Positions 18,645-41,944 of a stretch of DNA of 64,000 nt are shown here, piece by piece. Numbering within the stretch: position 1 is the stretch's first letter; each line of letters begins with the position of its first letter. The translations under genes were made by a program, and so were the position numbers. Below the pieces are notes generated by a model. The model did no database searches. It was not told the origin of the DNA and saw only the letters and a list, made by a program, of their open reading frames with translations. Origin of the DNA: Ordospora colligata OC4 (Eukaryota > Microsporidia > Ordosporidae); NCBI RefSeq assembly GCF_000803265.1, contig NW_014575403.1, positions 186,001 to 250,000 of the forward strand. Direction: 5' to 3'.

Positions 18645-21338
18645 TTAGTACTGTAAAGCCACTCGCACCACATAACAATCTGCCATCCAGTCAATCTTAC
18701 TCAAGTCATGCTTCGTAACTCCCATAAGAGCTTCACAAACCCTCTTCTCATACTCAAGATCACTTACTCCTCGTAGATAGCTCTTCCATATCCCTTCTCC
18801 ATATAGCCCAAAATTCTTCTTCCTCTCCTCAAAGTGCATCATTACTGCACTTCTAAACTTCTCAAACTCCTCGTCTTGCATTTCTGCAAAATATCCATTC
18901 AGGTCACCAATAAACTTTTTGACTCTGCCCTCCAAATACTCCACTTCTCTCTCGCTCTGCACCACAAATGTTATATACTGCTCGTCTTCAACATACGCCA
19001 TCCTACAGTATACAATATATCCAAGTTCCTCTTTAGTTCGGAGCTGATCAAAAAACATTCCCTTGCATGCATGCTGCACAAAGTTGATCACCGCTGTCTC
19101 CTTACTGTCTGCATACTTGCCTCCATACAAATATATCGCACATGCATTGCTTGCAGGATCCTCCGTATGCACATCGCATTTCCTGCTCAAATCCATTAAT
19201 TTGCTCTTCAGATTCACACAATCTCCATGCTGCCTCAGGCAAACACTTTCAAACACATTAACCGCCCATTCATGCTTTACATTCCCAACTACAACCATAT
19301 CTGCAAAAAAACTTCTTGGTATCATCTTCTGCACATCAATCTCCTTCACCATCTTCATCTTCTCCTCAGGAAGCATGTATCCATCAACTTTCATCTTCAT
19401 CATTCCATGCATACACAATGCATAAGGATTCTTGGTCCTTTCTTGCTCCAATACATTCATCATCTCCTGCATTATCATCAAGTTCCTGCCTTCTCCTTCA
19501 CTTGCTTCCTCAAACAGCACATTAAAGAAAACCTCAAATGCATTCTTTACCACATTAGTAAATCCTTCCGCAACAATCTCTATTCCACCCAAGCATACAT
19601 GCGCATCAATACTCACATCTGTTGCATACACCAGCTTTCCATACTTCTTTAAAAACACATCCTTTGCTTTATTAACCAAAAACATAAAATCTAACACATC
19701 TTTCCTCTCATACTCAAACTTCAACACACACCCAACAAACACTTTAGGAACCTTATATGACTCATCAAACAAATACAAAAGCTTTCCACCGTCTTTCTCA
19801 ACTTGTTTCATTTCATTACGCATATCTTTATCAATGGCCATCATTCTGATCTCATCCAATCTAGCAACACTTATCTCATACGCTGATTCTGCAAATACCT
19901 GCTTTCCTACTTCATATCCTATTCCATATATCTCTTCTCTCTCCTTGTACTTCCTTTCATTCTCACTACTTATCTTGTCATAATCAAAATTTATATCAAA
20001 CACTAGCCATTGCGATACATCACACATCTTCGATATCACTCCTCGTATCTCGCCTTCATCAAATCCTTCAAAACAGTATTCATGGTTCAATACATTCTCA
20101 ATCGGATAAAATTGCATGCTCCTTACAATATTGCTCACTTGTTCAGTCATCTCCTGTCGTTCACTGTATCTAAATACACTCTCATTCCTCCTCTTCAATT
20201 CCTCATACTCTTCTTCGTTCACTTCTATTCCCCTCAGATACCGCACAAAACCTTCCAGCACTTCCTTCATTTTTCTTGTACCTTCTTCAGACACAAAGAT
20301 ACTAACAACAAACAGAGAATAATCACTATAGTCCTGCACTTCCACATCTATAGATAATACAAGCCCAAGATCCTTCATTCCGCAAATAAATCCTCTCTCA
20401 TCGCTTCGCTCAAGCATGCCTAGCACATATCCATACGAATTCTTCCTAAACATCTTGTATCCAGATGGAACCGTAATCGTCACCATAACCTTTCTCACTT
20501 CTGCAAAAGATTCTATAGTGATCCATTTATTCAAGTATTCGCTCTTAAACACACTCCTTTTCTCTTCTTGCTTAATACTTAATTCTTGTATGCCATCAGA
20601 TACCTCAGATGCTGTTCTTCTCTGTACTCCCTCAAATTTGCTCAGGTATCTCTTCATATCTTCAATGCTCTGGTTTCCGTATATCACTACACATATCTTC
20701 TCACTACTATAGTGTCTTGTCCAGAACTCTCTCGCTTCATCCCATATTCCATCATGATCTAGTGTTTTATAATTTCCAACACTGAACTTCTTCAACGGCT
20801 CTTCATCACTACAGAGAACTTCAATCATCCTCTGTATCCTCCACTCATCTCTATTCAGTCCATTCACAAACTCTGCATTCACCGCAGATATTTCTCTTTT
20901 AACTGCATCTTGACGTAGCAAAGGCGCCTTGAAAAAGTCTGCAAATCTATATACTCCCTCCTCAAATGCATCTGGTGATATGTCAAAAAAATACTCTGTC
21001 ACTTCTCCCCATGTAATTGCATTGAACGATCCGTTGTTCTGGTTCATAAAACAATCAAACTCATTCTCTCCAGGATACTCCTCCGTTCCCATAAACAGCA
21101 TATGCTCCAGAAAGTGTGCAAGTCCTAAAGCATATTCAGGATCACTAAACGATCCAACCTTAACAGACACCGCACAACTGCACTTATCCAATGCAGGATC
21201 TGATGCAACAATCGCCTTTATGCCATTAGATAGTTCCACGTATTCATACTCCGCCGTATCTACCTGGCTTTTCAAAATCTCTTTCTTCATTGTTTTTTTC
21301 ATTCTTTGTATAAGGAGCAAAAAAATGTTTTTATGCAT
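18645..21338 (-). CDS. STE23: Insulysin-like M16 zinc metalloprotease (IDE/Ste23 family)
   Basis: Zinc peptidase of the cryptidase type that degrades short peptides and in yeast helps mature a-factor. The inverted zinc motif is HFLEHMLFMGT (His75, Glu78, His79) with the third ligand at Glu156 (IDE spacing of 81 from the first His). The 897 residues hold the expected four M16 domains; human IDE has about 1,019. The N-terminus offers three in-frame ATGs (21338, 21302, 21290) with no CCC/GGG near any of them, so the start is uncertain. The Met/Lys-rich leader is not a convincing signal peptide. A 199-bp gap separates its end from the 57-codon gene. Confidence 0.92.
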   Translation of the reverse strand: MHKNIFLLLIQRMKKTMKKEILKSQVDTAEYEYVELSNGIKAIVASDPALDKCSCAVSVKVGSFSDPEYALGLAHFLEHMLFMGTEEYPGENEFDCFMNQNNGSFNAITWGEVTEYFFDISPDAFEEGVYRFADFFKAPLLRQDAVKREISAVNAEFVNGLNRDEWRIQRMIEVLCSDEEPLKKFSVGNYKTLDHDGIWDEAREFWTRHYSSEKICVVIYGNQSIEDMKRYLSKFEGVQRRTASEVSDGIQELSIKQEEKRSVFKSEYLNKWITIESFAEVRKVMVTITVPSGYKMFRKNSYGYVLGMLERSDERGFICGMKDLGLVLSIDVEVQDYSDYSLFVVSIFVSEEGTRKMKEVLEGFVRYLRGIEVNEEEYEELKRRNESVFRYSERQEMTEQVSNIVRSMQFYPIENVLNHEYCFEGFDEGEIRGVISKMCDVSQWLVFDINFDYDKISSENERKYKEREEIYGIGYEVGKQVFAESAYEISVARLDEIRMMAIDKDMRNEMKQVEKDGGKLLYLFDESYKVPKVFVGCVLKFEYERKDVLDFMFLVNKAKDVFLKKYGKLVYATDVSIDAHVCLGGIEIVAEGFTNVVKNAFEVFFNVLFEEASEGEGRNLMIMQEMMNVLEQERTKNPYALCMHGMMKMKVDGYMLPEEKMKMVKEIDVQKMIPRSFFADMVVVGNVKHEWAVNVFESVCLRQHGDCVNLKSKLMDLSRKCDVHTEDPASNACAIYLYGGKYADSKETAVINFVQHACKGMFFDQLRTKEELGYIVYCRMAYVEDEQYITFVVQSEREVEYLEGRVKKFIGDLNGYFAEMQDEEFEKFRSAVMMHFEERKKNFGLYGEGIWKSYLRGVSDLEYEKRVCEALMGVTKHDLSKIDWMADCYVVRVALQY

Positions 21339-21579: not shown

Positions 21580-22032
21580 ATGCAAAACCTACCGCATTTT
21601 GTTTCGTTCCAGATGAACGAGATGAGGAACAGTTATGTCGATGCAAACAATAGGATAATCGAGAAAATGGACTTAATGGCTGAGGAATTCGTGAATGAAA
21701 TGGGCATGCTACCTGAAATATCAGAAGGCGTAAAATCGTATATTGAGGATTGCATAAGGCACATGCGAGAGATTGTTGTTGACCATGTGGGAATGGCAAT
21801 ATGTGAGTTTAAGGCTGCATATAATCCATGCGAAGAAAGCACAAAATCAAGAAGGTTTCCAAAGTTCATCACTGACGAGCTTGAGAGAAGCTTCGAGGCC
21901 GATTAGTATCCATCTGATCACGAAAAAGCCAAGCTCTCGAAGATTTGCAAGCTGTCTATCAAGCAAATAAACAACTGGTTCACAAACAAGCGAAATAGAA
22001 ACAAGGGACATGAGGATTACCGAGAGTATTGA
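21580..22032 (+). pseudogene. Classical (60-residue) homeodomain protein interrupted by an in-frame TAG
   Basis: The frame opens at an ATG directly preceded by CCC (21580) and runs 108 codons to a TAG at 21904-21906. It then continues in the same frame without indels for 41 codons to TGA at 22030-22032. The homeodomain straddles the TAG: RRFPKFITDELERSFEAD lies before it and YPSDHEKAKLSKICKLSIKQ plus the NNWFTNKRNR recognition helix after it. Trp48, Phe49, Asn51 and Arg53 are intact. The stop falls on the residue before Tyr-Pro in the helix1-helix2 loop, so spacing matches a typical, non-TALE homeodomain. A single substitution in a sense codon such as AAG or CAG would explain it. Options: a recent null allele, readthrough, or a sequencing error. 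The TALE homeobox gene follows 248 bp downstream. Confidence 0.85.
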
Positions 22033-22280
22033 GAGCCATCAAGAGTGTGTAGTATTTTTCATGGACATCCAGATATCTTTGGCTACACAAATGGCCACAG
22101 GTAATCATAAATTGTACAAATATTCATTTGGTTTTGAATTTCGTATTTAATTGGATTAAGTATTAGTAGAATTTGATTCTTACCAAGTATTACAAGAGCT
22201 GTGCTAGAATTAAATTACCTCACCAAATACGATTAATTAGTATGATCAGTGCTAGATAAACATTGATAGGAAGGGGAGCA

Positions 22281-22835
22281 ATGGATATTCTCAATCAATT
22301 AGTAGTAGCTGAAGAAACGTATTTTCTAAGTGGAGGAAATAGAGAGTGCCTTCTGGGCCTAGTAAGACAGTTGAGAAGCAAATACCAGTCTATGAAAATG
22401 TCTGAGTGCGATAAAAGATATATCATGGCGATTTTAGTTGTCTTGAGAAGAATTAAGCAGACAATTATTCTTGAGGACAGACTTATTGAGATGGTTGACT
22501 CTGAAACTTCATGCATCAAGAGCACAGTGAAGAGGCTTCTATCTGAGACAGTCAGTGCAGGTTGTAGGTACAACGACGATGGAAAGACGAGCAACCATGA
22601 GAACGAGCAGAAATATGCTGTCCCAAAAACAAGGATCAACTTCCCCATGGACATCTCTCAGTTCCTAAGGACCTGGCTTAGAGATAACATGGATAATCCA
22701 TATCCTTCTGATGCAGAAAAGGTGTATCTGTGCCAGAGCACAGGCCTTGGACTTGCACAGATCAATAATTGGTTCATTAATGCCAGGCGAAGAATCTTGC
22801 CATTCATGAAAGGTGAGTGTGCCAACTTTAAGTAG
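22281..22835 (+). CDS. TALE-class homeodomain transcription factor
   Basis: Nuclear DNA-binding protein of 184 residues. The C-terminal homeodomain (~residues 117-180) has the three-residue loop extension (seven residues between the helix-1 Leu and Tyr-Pro, ending NPYPSDAEK) and the TALE recognition helix INNWFINARRR. The N-terminal ~100 residues are helical, with no motif I recognise; in fungal HD1 proteins this region mediates dimerisation. The start is the ATG at 22281, seven bp after GGGG... (GGGGAGCA); a TTG six codons earlier also opens the frame but is less plausible. Together with the classical homeobox gene just upstream it forms a typical/TALE pair reminiscent of fungal mating-type HD loci. 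Confidence 0.92.
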   Translation: MDILNQLVVAEETYFLSGGNRECLLGLVRQLRSKYQSMKMSECDKRYIMAILVVLRRIKQTIILEDRLIEMVDSETSCIKSTVKRLLSETVSAGCRYNDDGKTSNHENEQKYAVPKTRINFPMDISQFLRTWLRDNMDNPYPSDAEKVYLCQSTGLGLAQINNWFINARRRILPFMKGECANFK

Positions 22836-23122: not shown

Positions 23123-24262
23123 TTAATCAATCTCAAATCGTATTCCTCTTGACGTCAGTCTCTTGACAATGTCAGTGTTGAATAGAACACATCCTGGCGT
23201 TATTACTCCACCTTTGAAGTGCATTACACCTGTATTTTCGGCCTGCAAGTCCAACGCATTCAAGAACGCAATTGCCACTTGTGTCAGGCATATAGATGTT
23301 GTTATATATGATGGATCAGGTCCTGATATAACAAGTCTTTTGGTACATGCACGCCCATTTATTTCTCCTGTACCATTCATCTTTATTGTGAACTTTGCTT
23401 TGTGCACCTCATCAACACTTGGATTCTTTTTCACAACACCAAATGTAAGAACTCTGTATCCATGCATCAGTATCCATCTTCCAGCCCTAGAACCTGATAA
23501 AATCCATAGTATCCCAACCATGATCCAGTAACCAATCACTCCAAACATGCCATGCAGCTGTAAGTATGCAGAGAATCTTGCCTTTTGCAGTCCAACCTGG
23601 CTCAATAGCTCCTGACTTCTCCTGATAACAAAGTAGTCAGAGCCTCTAAAAATCACTCTGTATGGCACACTAGGTTTCTCATGATGCATCTTTTGATTTT
23701 TATCACTTGAACGTTCCTCCTTCTTACGCAATGCCTTGGAATTCCTAAGAATTGACACAGAAACAATAAGAGACTCCCATGTGGTTTTGTTCAGAACCAA
23801 ATTGCTGATATTGAGTGTGCTTTCAATCTCCGCCTTTTCAAGCATGCTGCTCAAATACATCACGCCAATGTCCGTAGGAACTGAATCAAATCCACAGCAG
23901 TTGATGATGTAAACACCGTTCCTGACTGCTTCTTCATGGTATCTCTTAATAAGCAATTCCACAAAGCATGTTTCTCCAGTAATGTCCATATAGTGTGTTT
24001 TGTTTCTTATACATGCTTTCACTACATCCTCTCCATGATAATAATAAGGTCCTGCACAATTAATCAACACTCTTGCTTTTGCAGCAATATTATCAATACA
24101 ATCCACCTGGCATTCATATTTTGGAAGATCAGTGTCTACGATCTTACTGATGTCTCTTGCTGCAAGTGCAAGCCTTACGTCTTCTTTCTTGAAGAAATCA
24201 ATAACATAGGCTGCTGTGTATCCAGATGCGCCGTAAATGATGAAGTCGTATTCTCTTTGCAT
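23123..24262 (-). CDS. Saccharopine-dehydrogenase-like oxidoreductase (SCCPDH family)
   Basis: The N-terminus is a Rossmann fold with a GASGYTAAYV dinucleotide loop, then NCAGPYYYHG and THYMDITGE segments, all diagnostic of the SCCPDH/trans-acting enoyl reductase group rather than true lysine-pathway saccharopine dehydrogenase. A hydrophobic stretch near residues 243-260 (FGVIGYWIMVGILWILSG) suggests association with membranes or lipid droplets. The substrate is unknown. The 379-residue length suits the family. CCCTGA precedes the ATG. A 279-bp gap separates its start from the divergent Ser-rich gene. Confidence 0.85.
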   Translation of the reverse strand: MQREYDFIIYGASGYTAAYVIDFFKKEDVRLALAARDISKIVDTDLPKYECQVDCIDNIAAKARVLINCAGPYYYHGEDVVKACIRNKTHYMDITGETCFVELLIKRYHEEAVRNGVYIINCCGFDSVPTDIGVMYLSSMLEKAEIESTLNISNLVLNKTTWESLIVSVSILRNSKALRKKEERSSDKNQKMHHEKPSVPYRVIFRGSDYFVIRRSQELLSQVGLQKARFSAYLQLHGMFGVIGYWIMVGILWILSGSRAGRWILMHGYRVLTFGVVKKNPSVDEVHKAKFTIKMNGTGEINGRACTKRLVISGPDPSYITTSICLTQVAIAFLNALDLQAENTGVMHFKGGVITPGCVLFNTDIVKRLTSRGIRFEID

Positions 24263-26526: not shown

Positions 26527-26731
26527 TTGGTTGATGGGGTTGAATGAACTGAGTTTATATGTTTATGTGAATGAAGTGAGGAGATATCTCATTAGTGTGA
26601 TTACTTTGTTATTCATCTATCATTAAGTATGATTATGGTGGAATGGATTTACTGTTATTTATGCATCTACTGTTCTGTTATGCATAGGATCGATGAATTG
26701 CATAGAAAAAGCAATGCAGCACAGGGGCCCA

Positions 26732-27202
26732 ATGCGAATTGAGAAGTGTTGGTTCTGCTCGTCAAGCATATATCAGGGGCATGGAAGTGTGTATGTGAGG
26801 AACGACTCGAAGGTGTTTCGTTTCTGTAGGTCGAAGTGCAGGAAACTATTTGAGAGGCGAGTGAATCCGAGGAAGGTGAGGTGGACGAAGATCTCAAGGA
26901 AGGTGATGTGTAAGGAGTTGTGCAACGACCGTGTGCTTGAGTTTGAGCACAGACCTGCAGAGCTGAGAATATATGATCGTGAAGGACTGGAGAAGACACT
27001 GGCGGCAATGCCGAAGATAGCAGCAGTGAGGAAGCGCAGAGAGGACTACTTTATCAAGGACAGGATACTGAGTGGACAGGAGGTAAACAAACAGAGCGAT
27101 CTGGAGTATATTGAGAGGCACAAGCAGCTACTGTGTGAAGAGACAGATGGCGAAAGAGAAGCATTCAGTAATGTGAAGAAGAAGGCGGCACAGATGAACT
27201 AA
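26732..27202 (+). CDS. RLP24: Ribosome biogenesis protein Rlp24 (L24-like)
   Basis: Pre-60S factor that occupies the eL24 site and is released by the AAA ATPase Drg1. The N-terminus MRIEKCWFCSSSIYQGHG followed by FVRNDxKxFRFCRSKC-like sequence gives the four zinc cysteines, and the NPRKVRWTK motif is diagnostic of Rlp24/eL24. The charged C-terminal extension (156 residues in all) matches Rlp24 rather than eL24. Start: an upstream in-frame ATG at 26693 would add 13 residues, but the ATG at 26732 gives the conserved MRIEKC start and sits one base after GGGGCCC. Confidence 0.95.
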   Translation: MRIEKCWFCSSSIYQGHGSVYVRNDSKVFRFCRSKCRKLFERRVNPRKVRWTKISRKVMCKELCNDRVLEFEHRPAELRIYDREGLEKTLAAMPKIAAVRKRREDYFIKDRILSGQEVNKQSDLEYIERHKQLLCEETDGEREAFSNVKKKAAQMN

Positions 27203-27665
27203 CAGTAGAATGTGGAGGAGTGTGTGAATGAGGTTATGAAGTAGATGTGGTAGTTGGCAAATGGAGGAGGTTATGAAAGAAAATATGAAGAACAAAGGAT
27301 AATAGCATTGATTAAAGTGGTAAAGAGAGCATAAGTAGAGCATGATGTGATAATACAAGAAGTATTTGATAATTCATGATAATTGTTGATGCGTGATAAT
27401 TATTCATCATGATTGAAGACACATGATAATGATGGAATCCAAGACCAATTATCAATAAACGTATAATAAAGTATGGATGAGTATTTAATAACACATCCAG
27501 TGAACATTCACACCATGCTATTGAATGGAAGATGATAGGCACTAATGATATTATTGGAATATTAACGTAAAAATATTAAATATTCGATTTATTATAAAAT
27601 TTTATATGAACAACAATCACAGTATCTAATTTTAGAATATTTGTGTACAGTTGCTCACCCTTGAT
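27203..27665. other. 463-bp AT-rich intergenic region with TGATAAT repeats
   Basis: Gap between RLP24 and the ABCG gene. It contains scattered TGATAAT/CATGATAAT words (about 27345-27430) and a very AT-rich tract at 27565-27610 just upstream of the transporter. I see no tRNA, conserved ORF or inverted repeat. It probably holds the transporter's promoter. Confidence 0.5.
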
Positions 27666-40741: not shown

Positions 40742-41944
40742 ATGGCAAGACTTTCATTGATCCTGAGCGTCATGGGCTTCAGCTCAACTATTGCCAATAC
40801 ATATGCATTCAGAAACGACTGTGGTACTTGTGAGGTGCCTAAGAGGGACGTCATAAATTTCATGGGGAAAAAACGCCATTGCGAGTCATCTTCAAATGAA
40901 ATGGACTCCAGCAGCAGGTCTGATTGCGGAATCTCAGATAGTAGTAGTGATAGAAGCAACAGAAGGAACAGATGCGCAGATTCATCTAATTCCGACAGTG
41001 GATACAGCGGCGATTGCTCTGAATCATACTCGTCTTGTATGTCATCGTCTAGCAGCTCGTCATGCGCATCAAACAGCGAGCAATACAAAGGCAAGTGTGC
41101 AACAGAGCTTGAGATCCCACTTGAGAAGATGAAGAACACCTTGTTCACATACTTGATCGGATTCGAAAAGCAGTACAAGGAAAGCGTAGTTGCATTCTTG
41201 CAAGGACAAATTTCACAAGCATCTGTAATAAGCTCTGCATACGTAAGCACACAATACACTGCTCTGCTGGCAGCACTTGCAGATCTTGGATTTGTGATTC
41301 CTGCAGATGTTGTGACACAACTCAAGGCATGGGACACAGCTGAGGCAAGTGCTCTTGCACGAAGCATACAAGAGACTGCAGTGAAGGTCCTGAAGGATCT
41401 CCTGTGCAGAGTCAATAAGATGTGCCACTCCGATCTTATGGGTCTTATTGACAGTGGTCTGTTTTCAAGCCAGGTCTTGAGTGCATTCTCTAACATGCAG
41501 CCTCTGATTAACTCATATGCAGATGAATTGTTTGCAAAGCAGATGGCAGTCTTTGAAAGCTTGAACATTGAGTTCACCTCACAAGCAATTGATGCAATAG
41601 TGATTGGACTACATCTGAATGGCACTGACTTCATTGCATTCTTCACAGCACAGGTCTGTGCTCAACAAGTGAGTGCTCAGGCAGACTTGGCTCAGCTATA
41701 CCTGTACCTTGATATAATGATTACTGCATCATCCACAGACTTCCAGGCAATTGCATTGTTTGAGATTCAATCAATCATGAACAAAGTGTTTGGAACAGCG
41801 ATAGTACCACCTGCATCAACCAATACACCAGTAACTACGCCGCCAGCAACAACTACGCCGCCAGCAACAACTACACCACCAACACAGCCAACACAGCCAG
41901 AACAGCCAACACAACCTGTGTCCCCTCTACCTGGAAGTGTTTAG
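40742..41944 (+). CDS. Secreted Ser/Cys-rich protein with Thr-Pro repeats; candidate spore wall or polar tube protein
   Basis: The 400-residue product begins with a clear signal peptide (MARLSLILSVMGFSSTIANT), with likely cleavage near residue 20. Residues ~45-110 are Ser/Asp/Cys-rich, with runs of Ser. The middle (~115-355) is an Ala/Leu-rich helical domain with few charges. The last ~45 residues are a Thr-Pro-Ala then Gln-Pro-Thr repeat, with an 18-bp unit at 41833-41850 repeated at 41851-41868. Such composition is typical of extracellular spore wall and polar tube proteins, but I match no named one. A TATA box sits upstream, suggesting high expression. The start is the ATG at 40742; the TTG three codons upstream is ignored. 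Confidence 0.8.
   Translation: MARLSLILSVMGFSSTIANTYAFRNDCGTCEVPKRDVINFMGKKRHCESSSNEMDSSSRSDCGISDSSSDRSNRRNRCADSSNSDSGYSGDCSESYSSCMSSSSSSSCASNSEQYKGKCATELEIPLEKMKNTLFTYLIGFEKQYKESVVAFLQGQISQASVISSAYVSTQYTALLAALADLGFVIPADVVTQLKAWDTAEASALARSIQETAVKVLKDLLCRVNKMCHSDLMGLIDSGLFSSQVLSAFSNMQPLINSYADELFAKQMAVFESLNIEFTSQAIDAIVIGLHLNGTDFIAFFTAQVCAQQVSAQADLAQLYLYLDIMITASSTDFQAIALFEIQSIMNKVFGTAIVPPASTNTPVTTPPATTTPPATTTPPTQPTQPEQPTQPVSPLPGSV

Follow-up and report, generated by a model that had tools for sequence, protein, structure and literature searches.

The window analysed here is a 64,000-base stretch of the Ordospora colligata OC4 genome (contig C5, positions 186001-250000), taken from a surveyed assembly of 2,279,121 bases in 13 contigs. 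Two homeobox genes, HD-1 (21580-22032) and HD-2 (22281-22835), lie in tandem on its plus strand and are separated by a 248-bp intergenic gap (22033-22280, plus strand). The original prediction had placed two homeobox genes on the same strand at this distance, and its coordinates, spacing and frame all proved correct. The pair sits between an insulinase-type M16 peptidase gene (18645-21338) and a saccharopine-dehydrogenase-like gene (23123-24262), both intact and on the minus strand; protein searches returned an O. pajunii protein 86% identical to the latter. The ATG of HD-1 is directly preceded by GCCC, a CCC motif (upstream segment 21555-21579, plus strand), and that of HD-2 by GGGG at the end of the intergenic gap. 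A CCC or GGG within 15 nt 5' of the first ATG occurs in 27 of 37 window genes versus 372 of 3489 ATGs, and we take it to be a likely start signal. Neither gene was recovered as a named protein in our protein searches, despite the open 184-aa frame of HD-2, and both are perhaps unannotated in public Ordospora genomes.

HD-1 begins with the ATG at 21580 and closes with a stop whose last base is 22032, giving 150 residues when the position of an in-frame TAG (21904-21906, plus strand) is counted as residue 109. The piece before this TAG (21580-21903, plus strand; 108 codons) holds an N-terminal helical region and homeodomain helix 1, and the piece after it (21907-22032, plus strand; 41 codons) holds helices 2 and 3, the latter being the recognition helix (NNWFTNKRNR), and ends in a natural TGA. 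These helices were assigned from a model of P0002, an intact HD-1 relative (mean pLDDT 77.9, pTM 0.38), in which the homeodomain helices span 95-107, 113-123 and 127-146. The TAG thus falls in the turn between helices 1 and 2, and the stub that it leaves is without the recognition helix. Fold comparison of the relative returned homeodomain folds only (best E 0.0019, none at 0.001 or below), and no match was found for its N-terminal part.

The homeodomain continues across the TAG. Taken alone, the piece after the stop exceeds the curated cut-offs of both Pfam models (Homeobox_KN 50.3 bits, Homeodomain 32.9), whereas the piece before it matches no Pfam family above its curated cut-off, and a whole-genome search recovered HD-1 as a single homeodomain of 47.6 bits with one TAG within it. 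With 41 open codons and both sides aligning to relatives, this continuity is beyond chance. It is homology rather than composition that proves the piece after the stop, because its dicodon coding score is weak (0.124, on a scale where held-out genes have a mean of 0.276 with an sd of 0.515 and the wrong-frame 95th percentile is 0.157). Indeed, frame, Pfam matches and alignment all bear out the earlier claim that one in-frame TAG interrupts the first homeodomain. HD-1 carries no other damage, and the frame 3' of the TAG contains no Met codon.

The partner gene HD-2 (22281-22835, plus strand) is intact, encodes 184 aa and itself terminates with TAG. Its homeodomain exceeds both Pfam cut-offs (Homeobox_KN 72.0, Homeodomain 23.8), and its nearest matches in both sequence and fold are Meis and TGIF. 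The pair therefore consists of one homeodomain of normal spacing (HD-1) and one TALE homeodomain (HD-2), as had been proposed. The description of HD-1 as classical holds for its spacing but not for its sequence, which is TALE-like: the solved chains closest to the HD-1 family profile are the TALE proteins Extradenticle and PBX, to which it aligns with a gap of three residues. N-terminal helices are present in the models of both HD-2 and the intact HD-1 relative.

Protein searches identified 15 relatives of HD-1, every one of which has a sense residue at the TAG site, and 24 relatives of HD-2 at E 1e-5. Fourteen of the HD-1 relatives were aligned together, while the 15th was omitted for its length and compared singly. 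Both sides of the TAG align to the 14, the homeodomain is gap-free, the residue at the TAG site is identical in nine of them and both Pfam homeobox models match them all; the 15th likewise aligns over the TAG without a gap. The nearest relative, P0002, is an intact protein of 150 aa that is 95% identical to HD-1 and lies on an 826-base contig. Its differences from HD-1 number 5 in the 108 residues before the TAG and 2 in the 41 after it; since divergence is equally low beyond the stop, constraint on HD-1 appears to have persisted until recently, and the change to be young. A branch test of relaxed constraint, which had few informative sites, placed no change on this branch and one on that of P0002, with six unclear. 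HD-2 and its own nearest relative differ at 22 of 184 residues.

We think it probable, though far from settled, that the TAG has recently created a loss-of-function allele of HD-1, the normal-spacing member of a conserved homeobox pair whose HD-2 remains intact. A fresh null allele was one of three options raised in the original prediction, and it emerges as the likeliest of them because all 15 relatives are open at the site and divergence from P0002 is low on both sides. Fungal HD pairs act as heterodimers, and by analogy the HD-1 and HD-2 proteins would pair in the same way. The 108-residue product, which would retain the N-terminal helical region and the first homeodomain helix but lose helices 2 and 3, is predicted to be unable to bind DNA, and the want of a Met codon after the TAG would leave no in-frame restart of translation. 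This isolate would then have lost HD-1 function. If the heterodimer is the normal state, only the TALE half would be left, and the HD-1 stub might still sequester HD-2. An argument against a null allele may be drawn from other HD proteins, including Sxi1alpha, in which C-terminal truncation is described as leaving function intact (PMC3236058, excerpt).

The main rival to the null allele is a base error in the assembly: the organism would have an unbroken HD-1, and the TAG would reflect a single wrong base. We regard this as rather unlikely, but it has several points in its favour. A single substitution would account for everything, HD-1 is otherwise undamaged, and its divergence gives no sign of relaxed constraint. 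Moreover, the earlier O. colligata genome is called a short-read draft in the paper on a newer assembly (PMC12449221, excerpt), and a second split gene turned up in our sample. This came from a coding-score scan for split ORFs over 175,271 bases (37 stretches), which at a strict threshold gave two candidates and missed HD-1 itself, and at a lax threshold gave five, HD-1 included. Three of the other four look like chance by eye, and one looks like a real split gene from its Pfam matches: on contig C11 (L026:1545-2636) an EPL1-type piece and a PHD/zf-HC5HC2H piece share one frame and are split by an in-frame TAA. Such a split could mean assembly errors or general decay. Weighing against a base error, no stop was found inside 156 matches to four control families (0/32 kinase, 0/19 AAA, 0/28 Helicase_C and 0/77 WD40), a set that spans only about 16,000 codons and in which 19 of 38 AAA candidates were scored. 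In addition, among the eight homeodomain matches scored in the whole-genome search only HD-1 has a stop inside it, the other seven being clean. Six of these seven are further homeodomain genes on C3, C4 and C2 (L005-L009, L011), all of them open; no two are adjacent, and even the nearest two, on C4, are separated by about 11 kb. The assembly yielded no further copy of HD-1.

Published population data also bear on whether the stop is real. Between two O. pajunii strains, 8 of 2,666 SNPs are nonsense (PMC11237803, excerpt), showing that such variants segregate within Ordospora. O. colligata was haploid-like in 8 of 10 samples (PMC9997559, excerpt), which makes it unlikely that heterozygosity provides cover for the HD-1 TAG.

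TAG is an ordinary stop in this genome. In a sample of non-overlapping ORFs of at least 120 aa (175,271 bases, 37 stretches) it terminates 20 of 122, HD-2 among them, and within the window it terminates 7 of 39, including the gene ending at 41944 that had been cited as an example. No CTA anticodon occurs among the 44 typed tRNAs of at least 45 matches (63 of 122 candidates scored), in a set that is incomplete, as tRNA-Tyr is absent from it, and this limits the negative for a suppressor tRNA; the 45th match (L046) is interrupted and has the anticodon UAU by eye. Reassignment of TAG to an amino acid was rejected on the ORF count and the typed tRNAs, in line with the earlier exclusion of a changed code.

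Readthrough, in which the TAG is real but a fraction of ribosomes pass it and yield some full-length HD-1, had been another of the options and is weakened by our results; we hold it to be improbable. One feature of readthrough, coding conservation past the stop, is present, given the strong conservation of the piece after the TAG (2 of 41 residues differing from P0002), but another, conservation of the stop itself, is not, the TAG being shared by none of the 15 relatives. The codons that follow it (TAT CCA) are unlike known readthrough contexts such as CTA and CAR-YYA. The RNA 3' of the TAG folds no better than shuffled sequence (z 0.11, with 105 of 200 shuffles folding equally well or better), and none of the 44 typed tRNAs reads TAG, nor does the 45th as judged by eye, within the incomplete set described above. 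On the favourable side, a tRNA-Gln with a CTG anticodon is present (L035), and a variant form of the yeast tRNA-Gln(CUG) is able to misread UAG (PMC7277083, excerpt). We give next to no credence to removal of the TAG by an intron. The TAG might provide a 3' AG, but all 15 relatives are contiguous over the site with no insertion, and an intron would excise conserved homeodomain residues; it was rejected on the gap-free homeodomain alignment.

Full-length relatives of both proteins were found in Encephalitozoon (sharing 57-61% identity with HD-1 and 55-58% with HD-2), again a normal-spacing and a TALE homeodomain protein, which supports the predicted link to the homeobox loci of that genus. Unlike the O. 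colligata gene, with its stop in the homeodomain, the HD-1 copies found there are whole. Five HD-1 relatives lie on contigs longer than 30 kb, and four of them match an HD-2 relative in having longest contigs of equal length (P0005/P0020, P0006/P0021, P0007/P0018 and P0008/P0022, but not P0004), a comparison in which distances between genes were unread. Relatives of the saccharopine-dehydrogenase-like neighbour lie on contigs equally long in two cases (P0043 with P0007/P0018, and P0047 with P0004). These matches suggest that HD-1 and HD-2 relatives lie together in four other genomes. Judging by the numbering of a neighbour (M970_101420), the Encephalitozoon counterpart is probably the chromosome X pair of E. 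cuniculi. Three HD clusters of that species (ECU03_0600/0610, ECU04_0970/1030 and ECU10_1470/1480) have been put forward as candidate mating-type loci (PMC2866331, excerpt). Paramicrosporidium saccamoebae, a relative of microsporidia, also has adjacent HD1 and HD2 homologues, but there both genes are unbroken; its organisation was likened to basidiomycete loci and described as lacking conservation among microsporidia (PMC5701793, excerpt). Contrary to that statement, our comparison suggests that the organisation of the pair is conserved within Encephalitozoon and Ordospora. No report of a broken HD-1 was found in the Ordospora homeobox literature searched, which left out the O. colligata genome paper.

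The original prediction had also likened the pair to fungal HD mating-type loci, and this analogy stands in part. As in the basidiomycete HD locus (Ustilago b, Coprinopsis A, Cryptococcus SXI), the genes are a linked pair of one TALE class (fungal HD1) and one normal-spacing class (fungal HD2). However, the O. colligata genes are in tandem on the plus strand whereas the basidiomycete genes are divergent, and the O. colligata proteins are only 150 and 184 residues long. Two published statements count against the analogy: that such an organisation lacks conservation among microsporidia (PMC5701793, excerpt), and that isolates showed no distinct alleles or idiomorphs at the three E. cuniculi clusters (PMC2866331, excerpt). 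A parallel to the break itself comes from red yeasts, where premature stops likewise affect the normal-spacing class (HD2) and the TALE class (HD1) is free of them (PMC3236058, excerpt). There, HD2 has premature stops in two strains and is broken by an inserted repeat in a third, and the stops were attributed to lost sexual competence. Unlike the single O. colligata stop, which lies within the homeodomain and in one assembly, the red-yeast stops are N-terminal and found in several strains (PMC3236058, excerpt).

Genes of possible relevance to sex were recorded elsewhere in the assembly. TP6A_N, a meiosis-type family, has one match, which is open. On contig C7 (29764-32080, L058), a Helicase_C match is accompanied by two ORFs, one of 185 aa judged HMG-like by eye and one of 189 aa carrying two consecutive HMG boxes; the arrangement recalls part of the sex-related TPT-HMG-helicase locus described in PMC2866331 (excerpt). 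With TP6A_N and the HMG boxes intact, further components of a putative sexual programme persist.

A mating-type- or population-specific state, in which isolates with HD-1 whole or broken persist as balanced types, seems very improbable to us. It would fit a paired HD locus with one half broken and the other intact, and in Cryptococcus each mating type carries one HD class (PMC2866331, excerpt). However, the E. cuniculi clusters speak against it through their uniformity between isolates, and no sign of an idiomorph is seen nearby, since both HD-1 pieces and both neighbouring genes are ordinary orthologues. The bolder claim that the HD locus exists as two standing types, whole HD-1 versus the TALE half only, and that the TAG identifies one of them, such that loss or restriction of sex could be read from one base, is a long shot. 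If true, this would be the earliest known functional difference between alleles at an HD pair in microsporidia.

The existence of sex in microsporidia and the locus that would govern it are open questions, and HD pairs have been proposed as candidates, yet the isolates compared so far are uniform. The broken HD-1 represents a variation on an already known locus, and it would gain importance only through differences among isolates. Should the TAG be genuine and vary between O. colligata populations, existing data could link the locus to the presence or absence of recombination. If instead it is fixed, the HD pair would be dispensable in O. colligata, which argues against an essential mating-type role.

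Two duplications were noted in passing. An L24e-type ribosomal gene in the window (26596-27412) has a perfect 817-bp duplicate (100%) on contig C2 (13184-14000); raised diversity has been published for L24 (M896_051540, contig 05) of O. colligata (PMC9997559, excerpt) and could arise from this duplicate. AAA-domain matches at C5:1439-1840 and C9:206655-207056, both near contig ends, have equal scores and frame lengths and are possibly another exact duplicate.
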